DNA of 64,000 nucleotides from Flavobacteriaceae bacterium (GTDB lineage Bacteria > Bacteroidota > Bacteroidia > Flavobacteriales > Flavobacteriaceae), in NCBI GenBank assembly GCA_014238425.1, contig JABABD010000018.1:1-64000 (forward strand), in the 5' to 3' direction. Positions within the stretch are counted from its first letter, which is position 1, and each line of letters opens with the position of its first letter. This document shows positions 167 to 13,139 of the stretch, piece by piece. Made by a program: the position numbers and the translations under genes. The notes under the pieces are model-generated. The model was not told the DNA's origin. It was given only the letters and a program-made list of their open reading frames with translations, and searched no databases.

Positions 167-3100
167 TTAGTTTTCTGGTAATCGTTCATTAATCGGCCAC
201 GATGGTAAACTCAAGAAATTTTCTGGATTGGTTAACACATTCTGCAAAATTAGTGGTAACTCTGGTGCACTTCCTGTATATTGAGTCTGACCATCCATAT
301 TAACGTCGTTATCACTATATCCAGAAATTGGGAATGAAGGCAGTCCTAAAAAATTAGAAGGACTGTTCAGTACATACGACAAAATTTGTGTCGATTCTGG
401 GTTTGCACCTGAGTACTGTATTGCCGAGCTTCCATCCGCATTACCTGCCCACAAACCTATGACTCCACTTGGCATACCAGAAGTGGTCTGTGCATTGGAG
501 CCGAATGTTCCTAACCCTCCATTGGAAAAGTCTATAACTTGAGATGTATTGGTCAAGCTCAAAGGTGAATTGCTGTTATTCATAACCGCAAGATGGTTTC
601 TATGATCAATAACGAGGTTAAAATTACCCGCTAGCGTATTAAAAAACTTCACCGGAGATACACCGTCGATATCTACGATATCTCCATCTCGTTGCAATAA
701 CGCCGAACGAGATGCTTTGGCTAATGTGGCATTTGTTTCATCTCTTAATTCCAGCCAAATCCAATCGACAATTGCATCTGATCCTGTAGCGCTAAAAACA
801 CTTATGTCACATGTTAAATTATCAGCATAAGGGCTGGTTGTTGGTATGATTCCTGCGACACGTAAATCATCACGCATTAAGGTTTCTTCTTCAGTATTTG
901 GGTTTATTGCTGCGCCTTGTAAATACACTTTTGGCGACACATTTACCGAACATAAACTATCGTTATCGTTAACCGTTACATCAAAAGAGTAACTAGCGGT
1001 ATTTCCCCCTATATCTTTATACTGGTGTGTTACTGTAGTTGTTCCTACCGGAAAGGCTTCTCCAGAGGCAAGACCTTCTGTTCTAGTAATACCAGCATCT
1101 ATCTCTATTATATAATGATATTTTTGAGTCTCGAGGCTTTCAGCAGTGAACCACAGTCTACTATAATAATTAGGCATATATGCATAGTCACCATAATAAC
1201 TGGCTGTAGCAAAATTTACAAACGTATTGGGTTCACCAGTGATCCAGGTGAAAGAATTAAAATCGTTATCACTTTCCAAGTTCTTAAAACCTAGCCAAGT
1301 AAATGTTGTTGTTGTTCCATGGATATAATCATATACAAAGTTATTTTCAGCCCAACTATTTATGGCTACCAGATAACCTCCATATTTAGCAGCCTCATCA
1401 TGAGCTTGTTGTGCCGTAACTATATGGTTTGATACAAAATAAGTATGCCCTTCAAATGACCCCATAGCTTCATATCCTTCAATACTTGTTACATCCAAAG
1501 GTGTAGTGATCGTACCACAACTATCTGTAAAAGAAGGTAGGCTATAATTAACTACTGCTGTACACGAACCTGCCTCATTATTAACTACAATATCTCCATT
1601 AGCTGTTGGTGCTATAGGCGCTTCAGTATCGTGAACTGTTACTGAAAATGAATGTTGTTTTTTATCTCCATTATCGTTCGTTACTTCAAAGGTATTTGTT
1701 GTAATTCCTATTGGGAATACACTTCCAGATGCTAAACCTGTAAGTTGAACTATATTAGCAGTAGAACCAAGAGGAAGACTACAAATAACATTACTTGTAG
1801 GGTCTGCATAATTCACTGTTGCGCCACACATACCTGAAGTACTACCACTTGTAATGTCTGATGGCCCTGAAATAACAAGTGAATTTACATCATCATTATC
1901 TATAAGGTTAATTGTGTAGGTGCCAATAGTACTTTCTATTTGAGCATTAGAACCAGCACTTGCTATAACTAACTCCAGTACTATTGTCTCATTCCCTTCT
2001 ATAAAAAAATCACGGTACAAATCTATTGTTACTGTCTGTGTAGCTGTTGAACCAGCTGGAAAAGAAACAATAGAGCCAACGTTTGTTATTGCATAGTCTC
2101 CTGATTGAGCTGTTGTTCCTGCTGCTTCCTGAATTAACACATGAGTCTCTACATTAGCACCAGTATACATTAACACATCTATTGTAATTTCTTTAACAAT
2201 ATCACATACTCCATCTTCAACTTCACTAACACTAGTACCATCAAACCCAATTGTTGGAGTACTGAATGGAGTATCTATATATATTTCATGAGAAAAAACA
2301 TTACCAACTTCTCTTATAATATCTGGCACAGACACCACTACCAAAAACGCTTCGGCACCAGATGGCACGGTAAGTGTAATTGCGCCTTCAAGATCGCCTG
2401 CTTGCATTGTAATATCATGAAATGTTGTTACACCTCCATTTTTTAGTACTACTGTTCCCATAAAACGCGAAGCATGCAGTCCATTGGTACTTGTAGCATC
2501 ACCTTTTATTTTAAATTCGTAGTCTATTGCACTGGCATCCGTATTACGTATTCTATAGGTATTAAAAGAGGTATTTCTTGTTACATTAGCATCTGTTGGT
2601 CTAAACCAACCATTACTTCCAGTAGCATCAAAGTCTGCTTCTAAAGAACCATTTGTTGTAGTCCAGTCATAGGCTATTGTGCCAGGTAAATAATCAAAAT
2701 TATTTACAGTTCTTCCCGCATATTCTGCATAGTAATCTCTAAATGTTTGTCCATTATTCCCTAACATTCTAGACCAATAGGATATATTGAATTCACCATG
2801 TATGGAGTGTAAAGCTGTGTTTGTATGTTGATTGAATCCTCCTCCAACTAGTATTGATTTATCAACTGCCTTTGCTTCAGATAAATAATTTATAAATGTC
2901 TGCATTTGATAATTATGACCTCCTAATTCACCTGGGTATAAGCCATGAAATGCCCAAATTTCATAGTTGGAATTCACAACCAATGAGCTTCCAGTCAAAT
3001 CAGAACTGGTTGAAGGAGGAAACCCAAATGCCCCATACCAACTTGCTGCGCCTTCTTGAGCCCATTGTGAATATGGATCGCCTCTGAAATTTCCTGCTTG

Positions 3101-3535
3101 CAAATCAAAACAATGAAACAATTCATGACGAACACCAGGTATACTAACACCTAAAGCTGGGTCGGTTGAGACTGCCAACTCCGCATGTATGCCTGGAGCT
3201 GCAAAAGTACCTCCCCAACCTGAAGGTTGAAAATCATCTACACCAGGTTGATATAAATATACATTCAGATAGTATCCACTACTTATAGTGAACACATCTT
3301 TCATGTCATAGCTGAGTAATTCTTGTCTGTAAAGCTCTATTACATTTGATACTGTAGTAGCTTCTGCTGCCATAGCAGTATTGTCTTTGTCCCACCATAT
3401 TGCAAAACCATCAGTTGTAATTACATTTGCAACATTGGTATCGACTCCGTTTGCTGGTCTTAAAGTACGTGTTTGAGAATATGATGTTTCAATTAAAAGA
3501 AACACAATACTAATTAATAAGTAAATATTTTTCAT
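167..3535 (-). CDS. Large secreted multidomain putative zinc metalloprotease with Calx-beta, HYR and C-type lectin modules
   Basis: 1122 residues with a signal peptide (cleavage near residue 20). The N-terminal part holds a zincin motif HELFH at about residues 137-141, followed 20 residues later by Glu161 in a WAQEGAASWYG segment, a plausible third zinc ligand. Then come a region resembling a Calx-beta domain (about 430-550, ending in an acidic IDNDD stretch), HYR-like modules (GLASGxxFPxGxTT signatures near 600-650 and 840-870) and an inserted C-type-lectin-like domain (about 690-830, with WLG and WITGEPN motifs). The C-terminal 230 residues match a module recurrent in flavobacterial exoproteins (VDWIWLELRD, ALLQRDGD, then two YSG/YTG-type repeats ending in LPEN). 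No classical T9SS type A tail is seen, so the terminal module may serve as the sorting signal. Peptidase activity is inferred from the motif. Calx-beta and HYR assignments are from residue patterns only. Confidence 0.75.
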   Translation of the reverse strand: MKNIYLLISIVFLLIETSYSQTRTLRPANGVDTNVANVITTDGFAIWWDKDNTAMAAEATTVSNVIELYRQELLSYDMKDVFTISSGYYLNVYLYQPGVDDFQPSGWGGTFAAPGIHAELAVSTDPALGVSIPGVRHELFHCFDLQAGNFRGDPYSQWAQEGAASWYGAFGFPPSTSSDLTGSSLVVNSNYEIWAFHGLYPGELGGHNYQMQTFINYLSEAKAVDKSILVGGGFNQHTNTALHSIHGEFNISYWSRMLGNNGQTFRDYYAEYAGRTVNNFDYLPGTIAYDWTTTNGSLEADFDATGSNGWFRPTDANVTRNTSFNTYRIRNTDASAIDYEFKIKGDATSTNGLHASRFMGTVVLKNGGVTTFHDITMQAGDLEGAITLTVPSGAEAFLVVVSVPDIIREVGNVFSHEIYIDTPFSTPTIGFDGTSVSEVEDGVCDIVKEITIDVLMYTGANVETHVLIQEAAGTTAQSGDYAITNVGSIVSFPAGSTATQTVTIDLYRDFFIEGNETIVLELVIASAGSNAQIESTIGTYTINLIDNDDVNSLVISGPSDITSGSTSGMCGATVNYADPTSNVICSLPLGSTANIVQLTGLASGSVFPIGITTNTFEVTNDNGDKKQHSFSVTVHDTEAPIAPTANGDIVVNNEAGSCTAVVNYSLPSFTDSCGTITTPLDVTSIEGYEAMGSFEGHTYFVSNHIVTAQQAHDEAAKYGGYLVAINSWAENNFVYDYIHGTTTTFTWLGFKNLESDNDFNSFTWITGEPNTFVNFATASYYGDYAYMPNYYSRLWFTAESLETQKYHYIIEIDAGITRTEGLASGEAFPVGTTTVTHQYKDIGGNTASYSFDVTVNDNDSLCSVNVSPKVYLQGAAINPNTEEETLMRDDLRVAGIIPTTSPYADNLTCDISVFSATGSDAIVDWIWLELRDETNATLAKASRSALLQRDGDIVDIDGVSPVKFFNTLAGNFNLVIDHRNHLAVMNNSNSPLSLTNTSQVIDFSNGGLGTFGSNAQTTSGMPSGVIGLWAGNADGSSAIQYSGANPESTQILSYVLNSPSNFLGLPSFPISGYSDNDVNMDGQTQYTGSAPELPLILQNVLTNPENFLSLPSWPINERLPEN

Positions 3536-3892: not shown

Positions 3893-5767
3893 CTAATTCG
3901 ACGTTACTACGACATTCTCCAAGTAATCGACAATACTCATCTCGCTCGGAATATTCAGTTTTTTCCTTAGACGATACCGAGTCACCACAACACTCTTGGA
4001 CGCTATACCTAAAATAGATGAAATGTCTTTATTGTTTAGGTTCAACTTTTCAAGAGCTAATAGACGTTCTTCAGATTCTGTGAATTGATAACTACTATTC
4101 CTAATGTTTATCAAGAAATCCGGATGCACCAATGAAAATTTCTGCTTGAAATCGTACCAGTCATCTTTTGTAAGAATCTTGGAATTGGCGAGTTCTTGAA
4201 GATTGGAAATACTAGGTTTATTGTCCTCAATACTTTTCTTTAAAACATTTACCTCTAAAGTCAGAGCTTCTTTTTCTTTGCTTTTTAACAATAATTCCTT
4301 GGTAAAATTATCAAGGTCCAATCTTTTCTGTTCTAACTGAGCACCTAGAAGTGCTCGTTTATTCTTCCCGTTCCACCATATACCAAAGCCAAGCATTCCA
4401 ATACCGATCAATAAGGAAATTAATATATTTCGATTTTTCGCTGCTTTTTCACTTTTGATTTCCAATTGCTGGATCTCGTAATCTCTTTTCAAAATAGTTT
4501 TTTCCTTTTGTGCGCTTTCGAACCGAGATTGATGAAAAGCAAGAGCGTTAGCCGTAGAACGGCTATTCAACGAATCTTTAAATTTAATATAATTCTGAAG
4601 ATGACTATTGGATTTTGAAAAATCTCCAAGACCTCTATATATATCTGCATATAATTTTTCAATGTCCATAATGTTATAGTTAACATTAGTGTTTTTCTTT
4701 GAACTAACTCGTTGCCTAAAGGTGTTTAGCATTTGTAGTGCTTCGGAAAGCATTCCTTGTGCTTTTAAATACTTTACTTTAACAAAAATAGTTCCGGATT
4801 GCGCAGACGCATGCCCCATCTTACTTTCAACACTTAACAATCTATTGTAGGATTTTTCTGCACTCTCTAAATCATTTATCTGTAAATAGTATAGTAACGA
4901 TGTCGCCTCAGAAAGATGTTCATTCCTTATTTTAATACTCGAATCCTTAATTTTTGGTAGTAGTTGAGCAATGGAATCCAAATCTGCTTTTATGCCTTCT
5001 AAATCATCGTCATCTATTTTATTCCTGATACTCTTAAACTTAAAAAAAACCACTTGATCATATGCTTTTCTGGCTTTACTCGCTTTTAACAATACCTCCA
5101 GTTTATTTTTGGCCTCGCTCTTCAATCCGTTTCTTTCAAACATTAAATTAAGTTCTGAACCGACATACATCATATATCCAAAATCATTTAATGCTTCGTA
5201 TAAATTATAAGCCTTTTCAAGATTGAAAATAGCTTGCGGAAAATTGCCTTGGTTTGAGTTTGCCTGACCAGAAAAGAAAAAAGAATCCGCTGCAAAAATT
5301 GAATCTTTTGATATCATGAATAATCCTGCCGCAATGTCATAATCTTCGATAGCTTTGGTGTAATCAAGTATTGAAAAATGAACACCGCCACGCTTCAATA
5401 ACAGATGCGCTTCAGATTTTTCGGTTTTAAACTCTTGCTTAAAAGTCAGCATTTCATTAATATAACCAAACGCTTTCGCAGTGTCTCCTTTCATAATGTA
5501 CTGCTGAATCAAGAAACGGGATTTGGAAGCCATTTGGTCATACCTGCCTAAGGTTTGCGCTAAATCAACATACTCTCTGAGATATTGTTTTTGGTCCACA
5601 TGATTACTCTTGATCATGTCTTTTGTTAAGGAATCGAGTAGTGAAAGTTTATCTTGGCTAATTTTTACCTCATCAAGCATGTTTAAAAGCGAATCAATAC
5701 GGGTTTGTCCTTGTACAAAGTTGCCAAGAATAGATAGGACGAATATGTATTTTAAAAATCGCATCAT
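3893..5767 (-). CDS. Membrane-spanning TPR regulator with LuxR-type DNA-binding domain
   Basis: 624 residues. A signal-peptide-like N-terminus (to about residue 20) is followed by a long alpha-helical TPR region (about 45-405), one transmembrane segment (about 447-465), a cytoplasmic coiled coil (470-520) and a C-terminal helix-turn-helix (about 560-615) with the LuxR-like signature ESEERLLALEKLNLNNKDIS. The order implies TPRs outside and DNA binding inside the cytoplasm, a one-protein sensor-regulator architecture that is common in Bacteroidota. Two adjacent in-frame ATGs (5767 and 5764) are both possible starts. A promoter-like TAACTTTG lies just upstream. The gene stands alone on its strand with its own terminator. 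Ligand and target genes are unknown. Confidence 0.8.
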   Translation of the reverse strand: MMRFLKYIFVLSILGNFVQGQTRIDSLLNMLDEVKISQDKLSLLDSLTKDMIKSNHVDQKQYLREYVDLAQTLGRYDQMASKSRFLIQQYIMKGDTAKAFGYINEMLTFKQEFKTEKSEAHLLLKRGGVHFSILDYTKAIEDYDIAAGLFMISKDSIFAADSFFFSGQANSNQGNFPQAIFNLEKAYNLYEALNDFGYMMYVGSELNLMFERNGLKSEAKNKLEVLLKASKARKAYDQVVFFKFKSIRNKIDDDDLEGIKADLDSIAQLLPKIKDSSIKIRNEHLSEATSLLYYLQINDLESAEKSYNRLLSVESKMGHASAQSGTIFVKVKYLKAQGMLSEALQMLNTFRQRVSSKKNTNVNYNIMDIEKLYADIYRGLGDFSKSNSHLQNYIKFKDSLNSRSTANALAFHQSRFESAQKEKTILKRDYEIQQLEIKSEKAAKNRNILISLLIGIGMLGFGIWWNGKNKRALLGAQLEQKRLDLDNFTKELLLKSKEKEALTLEVNVLKKSIEDNKPSISNLQELANSKILTKDDWYDFKQKFSLVHPDFLINIRNSSYQFTESEERLLALEKLNLNNKDISSILGIASKSVVVTRYRLRKKLNIPSEMSIVDYLENVVVTSN

Positions 5768-5865: not shown

Positions 5866-7317
5866 TCAATCCAAAACGAACTTAAATCCAGCAGAGATGA
5901 TACTTGAATTCAAGCCATCACTCCTATCGTATAAACTGTATTTCAAATCAATTGACTTCAATCCAAAATTGAACAGCTTGAACTTCGTAAATACATCAGT
6001 GTACTTGAACCCTACTCCATATTGATGACTATTGAACTTAGAAAGGTCATAATCTGAGGTATAAAAATTAGTGGTTGACAAATTCTGCTCATAAGGTGCA
6101 AAATAATCTGCTGCTGTCTGTGTATAATATCTATAATTAGGATATAAGGTAAACTTTCCTTGTGCGAATTTTATTGGTAGTTCTACACTCGCTGTATGTG
6201 AATTGATACCCCAATCGTCAAAATAATAACGATAATAAGTTCTTAGAACAAATGTCTCGTTGATATAGTAATTAAACCTAGCGCCTATAGGTATTTTAAG
6301 GCGTGAATCTGGTAGACGTTCAATATCATCTGCCAATTGAAAAACATCTCTATTGCTTGGCAATGTGTAATTTGGTATACTAGCAGCATTACCAACATAA
6401 TAATTAGCTCTATCGCCAAAATAAACACGCTGCATGGGATTAGCCAACCAACCTTTTTGTTGTATAAAATCCAAAAACACAGAAAATTGTGAGTTTTTAT
6501 TCAAGATTTGTGACAAACTCAATGATACGGAATAAGAGTTTCTCGCCTTGTTTTCTATTAACGTCGTATTGAACGGCGACCACACGTTCGCTCCGTTCTT
6601 ATCAATGATGTCGCCGTTTTGGTTCAAAATTTCTATTCCGCTGAAAAAACCGTTATTCAAATCACCATTAGCTTGATTGTAAGAATCCAGTTCTGTTGGA
6701 TATTTAGGTCTCCAGGCATCTAAATATACCTGTGCCTTCACGCCTAATTCTGTATTCTTTTGATTGAAAAGTTTCGTGAATCCGCCACCAAATCCAACTG
6801 AGATATAGTCATATTCTGTGGCAAAATTGGCATTGGCACTCCAAATGGAATTACGATTATCCGAGCTATGACTGTAACTTGCATTGACACCTCCCCAAAC
6901 ATCTTGTGCTGAGGCACCAGAAGATTCTATCCAAGGGCTTCCCTTTGGGCTTGCATTATTTCCTTCATTATTATCGTCGTCGTCATCTCCTCCTGAGGCT
7001 CCAGTGGCATCAAACGGGTCCAAATTACTGGATGAAGCCGACGAATATGCCGAAATCCCAACATCAATGGTCAGAATATCATCATCGTTTAGTGGTATAG
7101 CAACCACAAAAGTTGGCGTAATATCTGTGAGTCTTTCATCTCCAATACCACCTGTAACAGATGCATGTGTACCATCCTGTTCGTAGTAACTCATTAAAAA
7201 ATCTACTTCTGTAGATTCTAGAACACGTTTCTTATAGATATTAGTCGAATCTTGACTTTGCTGCGCCAGCATTAAGAATGGCAAGCAAAGACATATTGCC
7301 ATTATCTGAAATTTCAT
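5866..7317 (-). CDS. DUF3570 family putative outer-membrane protein
   Basis: About 483 residues from the ATG at 7317, which begins a signal peptide (MKFQIMAICLCLPFLMLAQ). The reading frame extends upstream, but that part overlaps the preceding DUF4266 gene and lacks export features. The N-terminal mature region carries the family hallmark DGTHASVTGGIGDE, followed by alternating hydrophobic strands and an acidic insert (GGDDDDDNNEG). The rest is rich in aromatic, beta-strand-like repeats, consistent with an outer-membrane barrel. It is the last gene of the trx-apbE-DUF4266-DUF3570 cassette, and its ATG lies one base beyond the end of the DUF4266 stop codon. DUF3570 has no established function that I know of; a porin or receptor-like role is inference. 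Confidence 0.8.
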   Translation of the reverse strand: MKFQIMAICLCLPFLMLAQQSQDSTNIYKKRVLESTEVDFLMSYYEQDGTHASVTGGIGDERLTDITPTFVVAIPLNDDDILTIDVGISAYSSASSSNLDPFDATGASGGDDDDDNNEGNNASPKGSPWIESSGASAQDVWGGVNASYSHSSDNRNSIWSANANFATEYDYISVGFGGGFTKLFNQKNTELGVKAQVYLDAWRPKYPTELDSYNQANGDLNNGFFSGIEILNQNGDIIDKNGANVWSPFNTTLIENKARNSYSVSLSLSQILNKNSQFSVFLDFIQQKGWLANPMQRVYFGDRANYYVGNAASIPNYTLPSNRDVFQLADDIERLPDSRLKIPIGARFNYYINETFVLRTYYRYYFDDWGINSHTASVELPIKFAQGKFTLYPNYRYYTQTAADYFAPYEQNLSTTNFYTSDYDLSKFNSHQYGVGFKYTDVFTKFKLFNFGLKSIDLKYSLYDRSDGLNSSIISAGFKFVLD

Positions 7318-7318
7318 A

Positions 7319-7531
7319 TTAGTTACAACCACAACCTCCACCAGTTTTTCCTCCATTAGCACCTGAAGCGGCTTCTCGATATACTTGAGCATTGGTCTCA
7401 AAACGATCGATCTTATTAGCGGCTAGCGTCATGTCTGGATCGTTAATATTTACTTTTTCATATTCTTTTACAGCCACACAGGAACTTAAGAATGCTGCGA
7501 AGCAGGTAATAACTAGAATCTTCTTGATCAT
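7319..7531 (-). CDS. DUF4266 small lipoprotein with Gly/Cys C-terminal tail
   Basis: 70 residues. A lipoprotein signal (FLSSC, lipidated Cys18) is followed by a short conserved-looking stretch (KEYEKVNINDPDM, then RFETNAQVYREAASGANGG) and a glycine-rich tail ending GGGCGCN, with Cys67 and Cys69. This matches the DUF4266 family. Its ATG overlaps the apbE stop as ATGA, so translation is probably coupled. The terminal CGC could bind metal, form a disulfide handled by the neighbouring thioredoxin, or carry a modification; none of this is shown by sequence. It is notable for its size and its fixed place between ApbE and DUF3570. Confidence 0.8.
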   Translation of the reverse strand: MIKKILVITCFAAFLSSCVAVKEYEKVNINDPDMTLAANKIDRFETNAQVYREAASGANGGKTGGGCGCN

Positions 7532-8538
7532 TTAGGTCGTTTGTTTATTGTATTGTTCTTTTTATCTATATGTTTTGAATACCACACCTTACCCTCATCA
7601 TCTACAATAATGCATTCTATTGCATTCAATTGATCTATAAAATTGATTCCTGTATCCTTTCCCATAACAAAAATGGACGTTGCCATAGCATCGGCTAATT
7701 CTGCACTCGGAGCAAAAACAGTGACACTTACAATACCGCTGCTAGGATAACCTGTTCTTGGATCTATAATATGAGAGTATCGCTTTCCGTTAAAGGACAC
7801 ATATTTTTCATAGTTACCAGATGTTACAACTGCTTTTTCGAAAACAGGAAGCATAATGAATATCTTGTTCTTGTTCAAAGGATTCTTGATTCCAATGTTC
7901 CAATCACCTCCATTCACCTGCTTCCCCCAAGTATTCATATCACCAGACGCATTAATAATTCCAGAAAAGACCCCTTTATCTTTTAACAAGGCCTTTGCTT
8001 TATCGGCTGCATACCCTTTTCCGATAGCACCAAAGCCTATCTTCATGCCTTTTAGCTTCAAGAAAACTGTGTGATTTTCTTTATCTAGGATTATATTCTT
8101 GTAGCCCACTTTTTCAACTGAGCTTTTAATCACGTCCTCAGCAGGCATGGTAGTCATGCTACCATCAAACTTCCAAATGCGATCCATGGAAGCATAACTG
8201 ATATCAAAAGCACCGTCGGTAAGTTTGGATATTTGAATTGATCTCTCTATCAAGTCAAAAAGTTCCTTGTCCACTTTGACTGGTTGTAATCCAGCGTTCC
8301 TATTAATTAAAGATGTTTGAGAGTTTGGATCCCAAGACGAGATCAATCTCTCTATTCTCGAGATTTCTTCTATAGCCACATCTATATAGGCATTAGCTTT
8401 TTGCTTTGTATCGGCCACAACAGTGATATCAAAGCGACTTCCCATAAGTTTGATTGTTCGTTTATAGGCCTCTTGAGCCTGAGCTAAGCAGAAACTCAGC
8501 AAGAACATGTATATGTGAAGCCTCTTCAATATCTTCAT
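7528..8538 (-). CDS. apbE: FAD:protein FMN transferase (ApbE family)
   Basis: 336 residues with a signal peptide (to about residue 21, LAQAQ), so a periplasmic enzyme. ApbE covalently attaches FMN from FAD to Ser/Thr of exported redox proteins, using Mg2+. Family motifs are present in order: MGSRFDITV near the N-terminus, FGAIGKGYAADKA, INASGDM (the usual INAGGD with Ser for Gly), HIIDPRTGYP, and DAMATSIFVMG near the C-terminus. The gene overlaps both neighbours by 4 bases (ATGA), which shows a compact operon. No standard flavoprotein target such as NqrC, RnfG or an FMN-bind protein is encoded in this window, so the substrate may be a cassette member or may lie elsewhere. Confidence 0.92.
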   Translation of the reverse strand: MKILKRLHIYMFLLSFCLAQAQEAYKRTIKLMGSRFDITVVADTKQKANAYIDVAIEEISRIERLISSWDPNSQTSLINRNAGLQPVKVDKELFDLIERSIQISKLTDGAFDISYASMDRIWKFDGSMTTMPAEDVIKSSVEKVGYKNIILDKENHTVFLKLKGMKIGFGAIGKGYAADKAKALLKDKGVFSGIINASGDMNTWGKQVNGGDWNIGIKNPLNKNKIFIMLPVFEKAVVTSGNYEKYVSFNGKRYSHIIDPRTGYPSSGIVSVTVFAPSAELADAMATSIFVMGKDTGINFIDQLNAIECIIVDDEGKVWYSKHIDKKNNTINKRPK

Positions 8539-8963
8539 AAAGCATCAATCAAATCTATAATTGCTTGTGGGGATGTTTTCTTATAACCCATTTCACCAAG
8601 TACTGCGCCCTCATTGTCTAAAATCACCACCAATGGAAAGAATCCGTTTTCGTTATAGCGTTCAGCCAACATATTATTGTGTTTTTGTTGGGCTTGAGAT
8701 AAGGCATTTTTTTTCCGTTTAGGGAAGTCAGCTTTAAGTAATGTATAATGAGATCTTGAATATGATTGGAATACCTCTGTCTCCCATATCTCTCGTTCAA
8801 ATTTCATGCATGGAGCACACCAATCAGACCCAGAAAACACAAGTACAATACGTTGTTCCTTTTCTTTAGCTTCGGTTTTGGCGGCATCAAAATTTGTCAT
8901 CCATTCTTGCCCATTCATAAACGTGCAACTCAAGAAGCATATACAATACAATAGGTTTTTCAT
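8535..8963 (-). CDS. Periplasmic thioredoxin-like protein
   Basis: 142 residues from the ATG at 8963; an upstream in-frame TTG at 8972 is less likely. A signal peptide (MKNLLYCICFLSCTFMNGQ) precedes a thioredoxin fold with the redox motif WCAPC (CxxC) after a VLVFSGSDW strand, and a cis-proline region FFPLVVILDNEG. The mature protein should act in the periplasm as a thiol-disulfide reductant or oxidant. It is the first gene of the cassette and overlaps apbE by 4 bases. A plausible client is the Cys-rich tail of the DUF4266 lipoprotein; this is inference from gene order. Upstream, the intergenic region is shared with the divergent sigma factor gene. Confidence 0.88.
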   Translation of the reverse strand: MKNLLYCICFLSCTFMNGQEWMTNFDAAKTEAKEKEQRIVLVFSGSDWCAPCMKFEREIWETEVFQSYSRSHYTLLKADFPKRKKNALSQAQQKHNNMLAERYNENGFFPLVVILDNEGAVLGEMGYKKTSPQAIIDLIDAL

Positions 8964-8975
8964 TATATTCAATTT

Positions 8976-9032
8976 TAGGGTGTTACTAAATGGCTTTGTA
9001 TTTAAGAGACAGCATAAATAGATTACACCCTA
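8976..9032. repeat. Inverted repeat in the divergent trx / ECF-sigma intergenic region
   Basis: TAGGGTGTTA at 8976-8985 faces TTACACCCTA at 9023-9032: ten-base arms with one mismatch, separated by 37 bases. The arms lie between two divergent transcription units, close to the thioredoxin start codon on one side. This is a position where an operator or a leader structure would be expected. No known binding consensus was recognised. Confidence 0.45.
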
Positions 9033-9088
9033 TTTTTATAGCTTAATTTTTTTTGATTGACTATTTTTGACATCACTATTAAAACTAA

Positions 9089-9610
9089 ATGGCAGAGAAA
9101 GAACCCTCAATATGTGATGAAAGGAATTACAATCAACTGTTCCGCAAATATTATGAACCAGCGACCAAATACCTTTACTATAAATGTGGAGATTTGCAGC
9201 AAGCCGAAGATATCGTTCAGAATGTATTTATAAAATTATGGCGATTGTGCGCCACGGTATCTTTTTATAAGGCCAAATCTTACATCTATACTGCTTGTAA
9301 CAATTTGTTCTTGAATGATGTTGCACATAAAAAAGTAGTTTTAAAGCATCAGGAATCGGTTTCTGGGAAAACGAATTATGAAAGTCCTGAATTCTTAATG
9401 GAAATTGACGAATTCAGGACGAAACTAACCCAAACGATAAGTAATCTTCCCGTAAAAGAACGCGAAGTCTTTTTGTTAAGTAGGGTTGAAAAAAAAACCT
9501 ATAAAGAAATTGCGGAGATCACTGGGTTGACCATAAAGGCCATAGAACGTAGAATGAGCAAGGCCTTACAGTTATTGCGCAATGCTCTGGGAAAAGAAAT
9601 AAAGATATGA
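9089..9610 (+). CDS. ECF-type RNA polymerase sigma factor (FecI-like)
   Basis: 173 residues with the usual ECF layout: region 2 (YLYYKCGDLQQAEDIVQNVFIKLW, here split for reading) near residues 30-55 and region 4 with the helix-turn-helix KTYKEIAEITGLTIKAIERR near residues 138-158. It resembles the Bacteroidota sigma-70 expansion family that is paired with FecR anti-sigma factors. The FecR gene follows 48 bases downstream and the transducing TonB receptor after that, so signalling should run from receptor to FecR to this sigma. A TATTTTTG box at 9062-9069 resembles a -7 element, but no convincing -33 was found. Its regulon may include the receptor and the divergent cassette (inference). Confidence 0.9.
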   Translation: MAEKEPSICDERNYNQLFRKYYEPATKYLYYKCGDLQQAEDIVQNVFIKLWRLCATVSFYKAKSYIYTACNNLFLNDVAHKKVVLKHQESVSGKTNYESPEFLMEIDEFRTKLTQTISNLPVKEREVFLLSRVEKKTYKEIAEITGLTIKAIERRMSKALQLLRNALGKEIKI

Positions 9611-9658
9611 ATAGGGTAATCCTTAAATTAAATGTCTCATTAGTAAGCGTATAAGCAT

Positions 9659-10573
9659 ATGATGAACAATTACGATACAGACGATACTTTTTTGGGCAGG
9701 TGGATTTCCGGTGAGCTATCTGATGAAGAACGCATTGCATTTGAAAAAACTGAAGCTTTCAAGCAATTTAATAGCATCAATACCGAATCCCAACTTATAG
9801 AAGGACCTTCTATAGATACTGAAGCAGCTCTTATAAAAGTCAAAGCAAAAAACCAAACAAAACATAGAAATACCAAAGTGATTCGTTTATGGTATTCAAG
9901 GGCTGCAGCTATATTACTATTGGTAAGTTCGATAGTCTTCTTGAATTCCTCCAAAACCCATACTACTGGCATTGGTGAAAAACAACTCGTTACTTTGACT
10001 GATGGGTCCACAGTACACTTGAATTCTAACTCATCCATATCCCTAAAGCGATTTTTTTGGCAAAATAACAGAAAGATAGAGTTAAAAGGTGAAGCTTTTT
10101 TCAAGGTAACAAACGGTTCTGGGTTTAATGTTCATACATCTAAAGGAATCGTTAGTGTCCTAGGAACTCAGTTCAATATACATGATCGCTTAGACTTTAG
10201 ATTACAATGTTACGAAGGAAAAGTACGTTTTACGCAGTCTGATATAGTGGAGTCACCGTATATATTGACACAGGGGAAATCTATTTCTATAATGGCAGAT
10301 AAGATTGAAGAAAAAACATTTAAAGGTAATCAACCATTATGGAAAAATGAAGTTTCTTCATTTGAGAATCAACCCTTATCTTTAGTGCTTGAAGCATTAT
10401 CAAATCACTTCCCTATTCAATTTGACGCGACATCTGTGGATGTCAATCGATTATACACGGGAAGTTTTAAACATGATAACCTTGAAACTGCCTTGAAGGC
10501 AACGCTTATACCTATGGGTATTACCTATGAGAAGGACACCAATAATACTAACATCATCATACTATCGGAATAA
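9659..10573 (+). CDS. FecR family anti-sigma factor
   Basis: 304 residues. A short cytoplasmic N-terminal sigma-binding segment (LGRWISGELSDEER near residues 12-25) is followed by one transmembrane helix (about 80-97), a periplasmic FecR domain (about 105-200, with the typical VTLTDGSTVHLNSNS and VLGTQFNI strands) and a DUF4974-like C-terminal domain (about 235-303). The last domain resembles an STN/secretin fold and should contact the STN domain of the receptor encoded 4 bases downstream. Two consecutive ATGs (9659, 9662) could start it. Known role of the family: holds the ECF sigma factor until the receptor signals substrate binding. Confidence 0.9.
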   Translation: MMNNYDTDDTFLGRWISGELSDEERIAFEKTEAFKQFNSINTESQLIEGPSIDTEAALIKVKAKNQTKHRNTKVIRLWYSRAAAILLLVSSIVFLNSSKTHTTGIGEKQLVTLTDGSTVHLNSNSSISLKRFFWQNNRKIELKGEAFFKVTNGSGFNVHTSKGIVSVLGTQFNIHDRLDFRLQCYEGKVRFTQSDIVESPYILTQGKSISIMADKIEEKTFKGNQPLWKNEVSSFENQPLSLVLEALSNHFPIQFDATSVDVNRLYTGSFKHDNLETALKATLIPMGITYEKDTNNTNIIILSE

Positions 10574-10577
10574 TTTC

Positions 10578-13139
10578 ATGAAATACCTTTTCTTGTTACT
10601 AATATGCTTAGTGACGATTACTACAACTGCGCAAGAAAAACGAGATTATAATTATGACAATGTTCCATTAGTAAATGTTATAAAAGAGCTCCAAGAAATT
10701 CATGGCATTACATTTTCTTTTGCTAGCGATCAACTCCAAGAAAAAAGCATCTCTTTAACTGCTTCCGAAATAGGGCTCAAAGAATTACTTTATATTCTCG
10801 AAGCTCAGTCTGCTTTGTCTTTTCAGAAAATCTCTAATACACAGATTGCCATAGTCCCAATCGAATTAGAGCATATGACTTGCGGATATATATTGGATAC
10901 CGAGACAAGATTTCCAGTCACTTATCAAGAAGTACGGGTTTCTGATGAAAAAGTAATCTATACTGATGCAAAAGGATTCTTTTCTTTTAAAGACCAAACT
11001 AAAGCTGGATATGCATTAGATATTGTAGGTTATGAGTCTCTAGAAATAAATACTAGTTCGGAATGTGTTTCTATATATATCAGTAAAACCAATGAGAATT
11101 TGGAAGAAGTTGTTCTTTATGGATACATTACTAGTGGTATAGATAGGAATAAAGATGGCTCTGTTGATGTGAACAGACAATCTTTAGGAATTCTACCTGG
11201 ATTAGTGACTCCAGACTTACTGCAGAGCATACAATTAGTACCTGGCATCAGTACTTTAGACGAATCTGCCACAGGCATTCAGATAAGAGGTGGATCTCCA
11301 GATCAGAACCTTATTCTTTTTGATGATATAAAACTTTTCAATTCAGGCTATTTCTATGGAATGTTCTCAGCTTTTAATCCCTATGCTACAGAAAAAGCCA
11401 CCATCTTCAAATCTGGTACTAGTGTGGTATACGGTGATCGTATTTCTGGTATTATCGATATTTCTACAGGTGACGAAATTCCTGAGAGAACCATTAGCGG
11501 TTTTGGAGTGGATGGTTTAAGTGTGGATGCTTACGTTAAGGCTCCGTTATCAGATGATTTTGGAGTTTATGTTTTTGCGCGACGCTCGTATGCCGATGCA
11601 TTTAAAAGTGCGACATACGAAAGCTATGCCGAAAAAATATTTAGAAATGGAGGCCCAGTAACAGATATAAATGGCAATCCATTAACTATTGAAACCGATG
11701 ATGAATTTACGATTGATTCTAGTACGAACGAATTTTCTTTTCACGACATTAATGTGAAAGCCATCTATAAACCTTCTGATAAGGATCGTATCATCTTAAG
11801 CGGTCTCTCGACTCGCAACGTATTGGATTTTTCATTCACGAGTTTTGGTGAAACAAAAATAGATTCACTGGTTACCAAGAACAATGGTCTTAGCATTAAC
11901 TGGGAACATACCTCATCAGAGAACCGTACAGAAGAGATAGCCGCCTACATTTCAAGCTATGATTCACATTATAGGAATGTAGAAATTGAAAACGATCTTA
12001 TTGAAGAAACCAATGTGAGAGCTAACAGCATTACTGATTTTGGCTTGAATTTTAAATCACATCGCATTATCAATGAACAAAACTCTTACAAATTTGGTTA
12101 TCAACTTTCTAACACAAATGTGAATATTGATCAAATTAAGACAGAACCTTTAACGCCTGAAGATAATGTAAGCCTTATTGAGCGTGACAGTAACTTGAAG
12201 AATGCTGTATTTGGAGAATACAACTACAAAACAAAGACTTCAGGAATCATAGGTGGAGGTATAAGAATCGTTCATTATTCAAGTATTGGAAAAGTGTATA
12301 TTGAACCTCGCATAAATACAGAAATCCCCCTAAGAGAAAACTTCCGCTTAAAAGCAAGCATAGAGCGAAGACACCAGCCTATATCACAACTCATAGAATT
12401 TAATCAAACCGAACTTCGCTTAGAGAATAACATATGGCGTTTATCTGATGAAAGAGATTATCCTCTATTAAAAAGCGATCAGGTATCAGCTGGATTATTA
12501 TTCAATACTAATGGCTGGATTATCGATTTAGATACTTATTATAAAAAACTGTCTGGACTCACTACCTATACTAATGGTTTCAGTACACCGATACTAGAGC
12601 TAACAGAAGGAAAAAGCACCATAAAGGGTATTGATCTGTTAATTAAGAAACGTATTGACAATTATCGTGTTTGGGCTGGGTATACCTATAACAATATCGA
12701 TTTTAACTTTCCTAACATTCAAGCAAGTGATTTCTCTGGTAACAACGACATTACGCATAGTTTTAGGATTTCGAATACTATAAAACTCAATGATATTCAA
12801 TTATCATTGGGATGGCAATACAGAACAGGTGAACCATTCACACCAATTACTGATTTTGATCCAAGCACATTGTTTGTTGAATTCGGGAGGATTAACAGTA
12901 ATCGTTTAGAAGTCTATCATCGTTTGGACGCATCAGCCATCTATAATTTTAAGGCGCATAAAAAGAAACCTTGGCGAGGACAAATCGGGGTTTCTGCATT
13001 GAATTTATACAACAGGAAAACGCCAATTTCTATAACATATAGAACAGAACAGGAACCAGCAGGCTTAGAGTTAAAACAAGTCATTCAACGGTTTTCGTTG
13101 GGTTTTACACCTAATGTGTCTTTTAGATTGTTTTTTTAG
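10578..13139 (+). CDS. TonB-dependent transducer receptor with N-terminal STN domain
   Basis: About 853 residues from the ATG at 10578, chosen because it starts a good signal peptide (MKYLFLLLICLVTITTTAQ); the frame remains open upstream inside fecR. Domains in order: STN (about 25-95), carboxypeptidase-regulatory-like insert (about 100-170), plug (about 180-300, with IQIRGGSPDQNLILFDD) and a 22-strand-type barrel ending in aromatic Phe (FRLFF). An STN plus adjacent FecR and sigma genes marks a signal-transducing receptor. No SusD gene is adjacent, which argues against a polysaccharide locus and leaves a metal chelate, cofactor or peptide as possible substrates. The true substrate is unknown. 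Confidence 0.88.
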   Translation: MKYLFLLLICLVTITTTAQEKRDYNYDNVPLVNVIKELQEIHGITFSFASDQLQEKSISLTASEIGLKELLYILEAQSALSFQKISNTQIAIVPIELEHMTCGYILDTETRFPVTYQEVRVSDEKVIYTDAKGFFSFKDQTKAGYALDIVGYESLEINTSSECVSIYISKTNENLEEVVLYGYITSGIDRNKDGSVDVNRQSLGILPGLVTPDLLQSIQLVPGISTLDESATGIQIRGGSPDQNLILFDDIKLFNSGYFYGMFSAFNPYATEKATIFKSGTSVVYGDRISGIIDISTGDEIPERTISGFGVDGLSVDAYVKAPLSDDFGVYVFARRSYADAFKSATYESYAEKIFRNGGPVTDINGNPLTIETDDEFTIDSSTNEFSFHDINVKAIYKPSDKDRIILSGLSTRNVLDFSFTSFGETKIDSLVTKNNGLSINWEHTSSENRTEEIAAYISSYDSHYRNVEIENDLIEETNVRANSITDFGLNFKSHRIINEQNSYKFGYQLSNTNVNIDQIKTEPLTPEDNVSLIERDSNLKNAVFGEYNYKTKTSGIIGGGIRIVHYSSIGKVYIEPRINTEIPLRENFRLKASIERRHQPISQLIEFNQTELRLENNIWRLSDERDYPLLKSDQVSAGLLFNTNGWIIDLDTYYKKLSGLTTYTNGFSTPILELTEGKSTIKGIDLLIKKRIDNYRVWAGYTYNNIDFNFPNIQASDFSGNNDITHSFRISNTIKLNDIQLSLGWQYRTGEPFTPITDFDPSTLFVEFGRINSNRLEVYHRLDASAIYNFKAHKKKPWRGQIGVSALNLYNRKTPISITYRTEQEPAGLELKQVIQRFSLGFTPNVSFRLFF

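Follow-up and report, generated by a model that had tools for sequence, protein, structure and literature searches.

A Flavobacteriaceae flavinylation cassette with a predicted outer-membrane barrel and a divergent ECF sigma–FecR–TonB transducer system

Gene clusters that combine the FAD:protein flavin mononucleotide (FMN) transferase ApbE with DUF3570, a thioredoxin and DUF4266 were already reported as flavinylation clusters by Meheust et al. 2021 (eLife, PMC8238504). That work lists 285 clusters with DsbD, most of them also with DUF3570, a Thioredoxin_7 protein and DUF4266, and 316 ApbE/DUF3570/thioredoxin/DUF4266 clusters without DsbD. It showed by experiment that the DUF3570 protein of C. 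luteolum is flavinylated by its own ApbE at two [ST]GA[ST] motifs, pointed out the CxC of DUF4266, and suggested a role in iron assimilation from 25 clusters with VIT1. Its text never mentions a barrel and uses "outer membrane" once, for siderophore receptors; DUF3570 also goes unnamed in a 2024 follow-up (PMC11334425), and in the literature searched only Meheust et al. 2021 names DUF3570 or DUF4266. Here, we describe a cassette of this kind in a 64,000-nucleotide stretch of a Flavobacteriaceae genome (contig JABABD010000018.1; the whole stretch is referred to as the window). The genes for the thioredoxin (Trx), ApbE, DUF4266 and DUF3570 form one minus-strand unit, from which an extracytoplasmic function (ECF) sigma factor, a FecR-type anti-sigma factor and a TonB-dependent transducer receptor diverge on the plus strand. 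The cassette's assignment to an envelope redox system, made in an earlier note on this DNA, is supported, and we lean somewhat towards regarding the locus as a flavin-based outer-membrane electron-transfer module under dedicated cell-surface control.

The cassette agrees with the published clusters in holding all four families in one cluster (Pfam assignments and gene order), in the two [ST]GA[ST] motifs of DUF3570 and in the C-terminal CxC of DUF4266 (CGCN). Unlike the clusters with DsbD, about half of those reported, it has no linked DsbD gene and resembles the 316 DsbD-free clusters, whose existence means that the absence of a linked DsbD does not exclude membership; the only DsbD-family gene of this genome lies on a contig other than the cassette's. 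The earlier note had held that the role of DUF4266 and DUF3570 was undescribed and that no standard ApbE target was present. Both statements are wrong, as both families had been reported, DUF3570 had been shown to be flavinylated (PMC8238504), and the DUF3570 of the window itself carries TGAS at residues 105–108 and SGAS at residues 133–136. Newly supported here, and lacking from the published description, are the reading of DUF3570 as a barrel in the outer membrane, the [ST]SAS variants, an additional (third) flavin motif, the predicted placement of the motifs on a surface loop, and the dedicated ECF/FecR/TonB regulator.

Two further kinds of system share features with this locus. Porin–cytochrome conduits of the MtrCAB type share the idea of a barrel with redox cofactors, the barrel here being predicted by modelling. 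Multiheme cytochromes underlie the well-known protein routes by which electrons cross the outer membrane, and the MtrCAB type carries multiheme CxxCH motifs, whereas none is found here (CAPCM in Trx, CGCN in DUF4266 and no Cys in mature DUF3570), so that the cassette is not a member; its cofactor would instead be covalent FMN on the barrel itself, together with thiol partners. PepSY-like systems (Meheust et al. 2021) share an ApbE near a TonB receptor and flavin in the envelope, but their PepSY, FMN_bind and DUF2271 domains are absent, by Pfam, from the cassette, the trio and the two downstream genes. A Riemerella fur study (PMC5609570), in which the consecutive genes RAYM_04481 to 04506, including ApbE and a TonB receptor, are raised by iron restriction, was not used, because the intervening "nitric oxide synthase" fits PepSY-type flavinylation better.

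Flavin sites and predicted barrel of DUF3570

Since DUF3570 has two [ST]GA[ST] motifs, an ApbE target is present and is the product of the fourth gene. The published experiment on the C. luteolum homologue supports the view that ApbE attaches FMN to this DUF3570 as well. The comparisons below draw on 140 loci, namely 60 stretches of about 20 kb and 80 organism-named loci, most of them picked for similarity; labels of the form L### denote individual sampled cassette loci. The earlier note had proposed that ApbE matures either the small lipoprotein or the barrel, and of these the barrel stands by homology (PMC8238504). The SGAN-like stretch of DUF4266 was considered and rejected: across 139 loci, with only a few exceptions, the acceptor position is occupied by Asn, and for want of a Ser/Thr acceptor the lipoprotein is not a plausible substrate. 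Its C-terminal CxC, in turn, is present in 139 of 139 loci.

A 2025 review gives the ApbE motif as D-x-x-[ST]-G-A-[ST] and reports that changing Gly to Ala halves modification (PMC12052999); because modification is only halved, [ST]SAS as an ApbE site is plausible but unproven. In alignment with the Chlorobiota type, where site 1 is TGAS, the Bacteroidota proteins read [TS]SAS at this site. Site 2 is SGAS both in Chlorobiota and in the majority of Flavobacteriaceae, a few of the latter having TGAS, and the remaining Bacteroidota have SSAS. The last motif residues, Ser95 and Ser136, are invariant in an alignment of 64 sequences. In long-form DUF3570 proteins the two sites are separated by an insertion that evolves fast and is often acidic. 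A further [ST]GA[ST] is found in 46 of 54 such long linkers, against a mean of 0.8 and a maximum of 6 in 5000 shuffles, and its retention despite a shifting position argues for selection for an additional flavin. In L105–L113 (DUF3570 near locus position 10000), [ST]GA[ST] is absent and both conserved sites are TSAS or SSAS, beside ApbE. Such [ST]SAS-only barrels offer a direct test of how far the ApbE motif can vary.

AlphaFold2 (AF2) modelling of DUF3570 with 64 related sequences predicts a 16-strand barrel (pLDDT 86, pTM 0.80), and a second run on a short-form homologue returns the identical 16 strands. In Foldseek the model matches outer-membrane channels of the FadL, BcsC, OpdK and OmpG type, at high probability but with moderate TM-scores; a search by sequence found no relative of DUF3570 among solved structures, and a viral-structure search, set aside, returned generic barrels only. 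The loops alternate between long and short (199 versus 33 residues). As 16 strands put both termini on one side and the loops alternate, the long set, including loop 92–139 with all flavinylation-type motifs, should be extracellular. DUF3570 is thus predicted to form an outer-membrane barrel of 16 strands whose flavin-motif loop faces the extracellular side, although this loop may instead fold into the lumen. The barrel can carry neither a heme c nor a thiol site, since mature DUF3570 has no Cys, and flavin is left as the plausible cofactor.

The placement of this loop separates the outward reading from an alternative in which the system faces inwards. With the FMN loop inside the lumen or facing the periplasm, the system might reduce an entering substrate, in the manner of assimilatory iron reduction; a ferric chelate arriving via a TonB receptor would be one example. 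Where the trio is missing, some lineages do have another TonB-dependent receptor beside the cassette (4 loci, plus L176), and VIT1 lies within 6 kb in 10 loci, the gene from whose 25 clusters iron assimilation was suggested (PMC8238504). However, strand parity and loop lengths place the motif loop on the extracellular side, and most neighbours are not iron genes: in Flavobacterium, the cassette has a two-component system and a CusA-type efflux pump beside it, and among all loci a CusA-type pump and an OmpR-type response regulator occur within 6 kb in 20 and 26, respectively. We therefore hold an inward-facing system to be unlikely, though a serious contender.

Control of the cassette by the divergent sigma factor

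The sigma–trx intergenic regions of linked loci share an A-tract, TAGGGT, 15 bases and TGTC. Counting TAGGGT-N15-TGT[CA] within 450 bp upstream of the cassette recovers the motif in 14 of the 15 loci from which the trio diverges, the present window included, and in 0 of 119 unlinked cassettes (Fisher 4e-18, a p-value that overstates independence, as the motif was spotted by eye in the linked loci before counting and those loci are related). The single exception, L079, has the same -35 element but CGTC, as does its sister L185. In both loci an extra lipoprotein gene of 269–325 aa (L079:7465-8274, L185:6925-7902) lies between sigma and trx, with the ECF promoter before the lipoprotein. A second copy of the promoter, between sigma and fecR and directed towards fecR-tonB, is present in 13 of the 15 linked loci.

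At both promoters the -10 element varies with sigma clade, being TGTC, TGTA or CGTC. Every copy in L070 and L148 ends in TGTA; the sigma factors of these two loci share only 44–47% identity with the one described here, and the -10 element thus follows the sigma factor. The GTC core found here is in line with the CGT box at the -10 position of ECF promoters in the Flavobacterium psychrophilum transcriptome (PMC9723704). The full site is found a single time in this genome, in front of the cassette (control 0); in eleven further linked genomes there are 18 occurrences, of which 11 lie at the cassette (reversed control 0). On the DUF3570 tree, trio-linked loci occupy at least 4 separate places, and the trio label requires five changes compared with 14.2 in shuffles; pairwise distances of sigma correlate with those of DUF3570 (r = 0.89), as do those of ApbE (0.83). 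Taken together, the 14 of 15 versus 0 of 119 contrast, the covariation at -10, the near-unique site, the separate linked clades and the correlated distances make it very likely from comparative sequence evidence that the sigma factor controls the cassette via a dedicated promoter, as the earlier note had supposed.

That note had also proposed checking whether the four families co-occur with the trio. The four families do keep together, but the trio does not follow them, being linked in only 15 of 134 cassettes with usable upstream sequence. Its absence from the other 119 would suit a chance adjacency in which sigma serves its own receptor only; yet the distribution of the motif, the -10 element that covaries with sigma, a site near-unique in 12 genomes and the separate linked clades all speak against chance, which we judge highly improbable. 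One further candidate target was rejected: on contig 34, the sigma site located 1.6 kb upstream of the DsbD-family gene falls within another ORF, and the short pattern behind it occurs near reversed-control level in this genome (10 versus 5 matches).

The trio itself resembles FecIRA, with which it shares all three components, including a receptor with an STN-like N-terminal domain, and apparently also a sigma-type promoter before fecR-tonB. Where FecIRA acts on a ferric-chelate transporter, the chief divergent target here is a flavinylation cassette.

A possible heme-free electron outlet

The proposed route would begin at the cell surface, where the TonB transducer may bind an extracellular ligand and free the ECF sigma factor through FecR. 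Sigma would then transcribe its own fecR-tonB and the divergent cassette from the TAGGGT-N15-TGTC promoters, as the comparative sequence evidence suggests. Periplasmic ApbE would attach FMN to Ser residues of DUF3570, judging from the experiment on the homologue, and DUF3570 is modelled to insert as a 16-strand barrel with two or three FMNs on its long loop, extracellular or in the lumen. A DsbD-type protein encoded elsewhere in the genome would reduce the periplasmic thioredoxin, which would in turn reduce the CxC tail of the DUF4266 lipoprotein, and the latter could pass electrons to the FMNs of DUF3570. From there electrons might leave the cell, with a metal, for example ferric iron, as the most likely extracellular acceptor; the TonB, VIT1 and CusA neighbours would favour metal reduction. 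We advance only tentatively the fuller proposal of a heme-free conduit, widespread in Bacteroidota and Chlorobiota, in which several FMNs sit covalently on an extracellular barrel loop and receive electrons from a thioredoxin and a lipoprotein with a CxC tail, and which a dedicated TonB surface sensor induces in some lineages. If correct, a flavin-bearing barrel would be a second, heme-free route for electrons through the outer membrane, present in about a third of sampled family genomes and also in Chlorobiota, and the promoter would offer a handle: switching on the trio could turn the system on and reveal what is reduced and sensed.

Several observations weigh against this reading, besides the prior sighting of the promoter motif. 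The flavin loop is modelled with low confidence (residues 105–121 and 133–137 below 50), and only strand parity and the lengths of the loops indicate its side of the membrane. Many DUF3570 proteins adjoining ApbE outside Flavobacteriaceae have only TSAS or SSAS at both sites, which leaves two options: ApbE tolerates SAS in these proteins, or the flavin is not a general feature. Finally, the same promoter precedes large surface proteins in some relatives, which an electron outlet leaves unexplained: it stands shortly before YadA-head/C1q proteins (L124, L143, L162) and also precedes a T9SS-tailed surface protein (L123) and secreted proteins (L121 genome).

These promoters would be expected if the cassette were a thiol/flavin quality-control system that keeps secreted adhesins or other outer-membrane proteins reduced, with sigma co-inducing the clients. 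The putative clients are, however, not homologous between relatives, no such site was found before the large surface protein gene of the present window (167–3535), and thiol repair does not require a covalent-flavin barrel. We consider quality control improbable, and retain the flavin-based outer-membrane module as the preferred interpretation.

Locus organization, conservation and neighbouring genes

Gene positions and orientation (Table 1), the two ATGA overlaps and the spacing of the fourth gene, whose ATG lies one base past the DUF4266 stop, were read in the sequence as the earlier note had described them, and Pfam assigns all seven genes, including a complete divergent trio (Sigma70_r4_2/r2, FecR, and Plug with an STN-like match).

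Table 1. Coordinates of the cassette, the divergent trio, their predicted promoters and the DUF3570 motifs in the window
Feature	Position	Strand	Basis and remarks
Trx, periplasmic thioredoxin-like	8535..8963	minus	Thioredoxin_7 Pfam 2e-14; WCAPC active site; signal peptide
ApbE, FAD:protein FMN transferase	7528..8538	minus	Pfam 1.3e-85
DUF4266 lipoprotein	7319..7531	minus	Pfam 3.7e-19; lipobox LSSC; C-terminal CGCN (end GGGCGCN)
DUF3570, predicted 16-strand outer-membrane beta-barrel, ApbE substrate by homology	5866..7317	minus	Pfam 2e-42
Loop 92-139 of DUF3570, strands 3-4, predicted extracellular side	6901..7044	minus	all flavinylation-type motifs inside
Site 1, SSAS, residues 92-95	7033..7044	minus	aligned with TGAS of Chlorobiota DUF3570; non-canonical (G to S)
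Extra motif TGAS, residues 105-108	6994..7005	minus	in acidic insertion
Site 2, SGAS, residues 133-136	6910..6921	minus	final Ser invariant
ECF sigma factor	9089..9610	plus	Pfam Sigma70_r2/r4_2
FecR-type anti-sigma factor	9659..10573	plus	Pfam FecR 7e-18
TonB-dependent transducer receptor	10578..13139	plus	Pfam Plug 7e-9; start inferred from alignment, ORF from 10527
Predicted cassette ECF promoter	9008..9037	minus	AAAAATAGGGTG-N14-TGTC; end 44 bp before trx ATG
Predicted fecR-tonB ECF promoter	9612..9636	plus	TAGGGT-N15-TGTC

The Trx start is the ATG at 8963 (the listed TTG ORF opens at 8972), and its closest solved relative is 2ju5, a thioredoxin disulfide isomerase; ApbE has 13 solved homologues, nearly all annotated as ApbE/FMN transferase. 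The sigma factor matches NCBIfam Sig70_bacteroi1 at 6e-35, slightly under the cut-off. The STN-like signalling domain of the TonB receptor is read from an N-terminal FecR_C match at residues 41–109 (Pfam 2e-6); a single-sequence search found no solved relative of this receptor.

DUF3570 and DUF4266 occur in an identical set of 55 of 149 family genomes and adjoin wherever contigs permit, a pairing that is not due to chance. The order Trx-ApbE-DUF4266-DUF3570 is nearly constant across Bacteroidota loci and rearranged in Chlorobiota-type loci (DUF4266, DUF3570, ApbE, then DsbD); the four-gene order is therefore not confined to close relatives, a point on which the earlier note had called for a check. 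Among the 140 loci, DsbD adjoins the cassette in 8 and a Rieske gene lies directly upstream in 13. The latter (L064, L072, L073, L075, L082, L093, L094, L095, L099, L100, L109, L111 and L151) is a small [2Fe-2S] protein gene, usually directly upstream of trx, and might supply a further electron carrier. An LtaS-like membrane sulfatase adjoins the cassette in 19 of the 140 loci, with an orientation that differs between genera (for example L135, L141, L142, L144 and Flavobacterium loci such as L159). A release factor, OMP decarboxylase, glutamine synthetase and a GH3/beta-lactamase protein are conserved neighbours too, and were set aside as housekeeping context.

Directly downstream of DUF3570, the window encodes a TPR protein with a LuxR-type C-terminal domain (3893–5767, minus strand). 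Such a protein is also found near DUF3570 in L122, L123, L125 and L143; in L123 the gene is reduced to a short ORF with its own ECF-type site in front. Beyond it lies the gene for a 1122-aa secreted protein (167–3535, minus strand) with a HELFH metallopeptidase-like motif, lectin and HYR domains, whose C-terminal domain is common to proteins near the cassette in L122 and L124.

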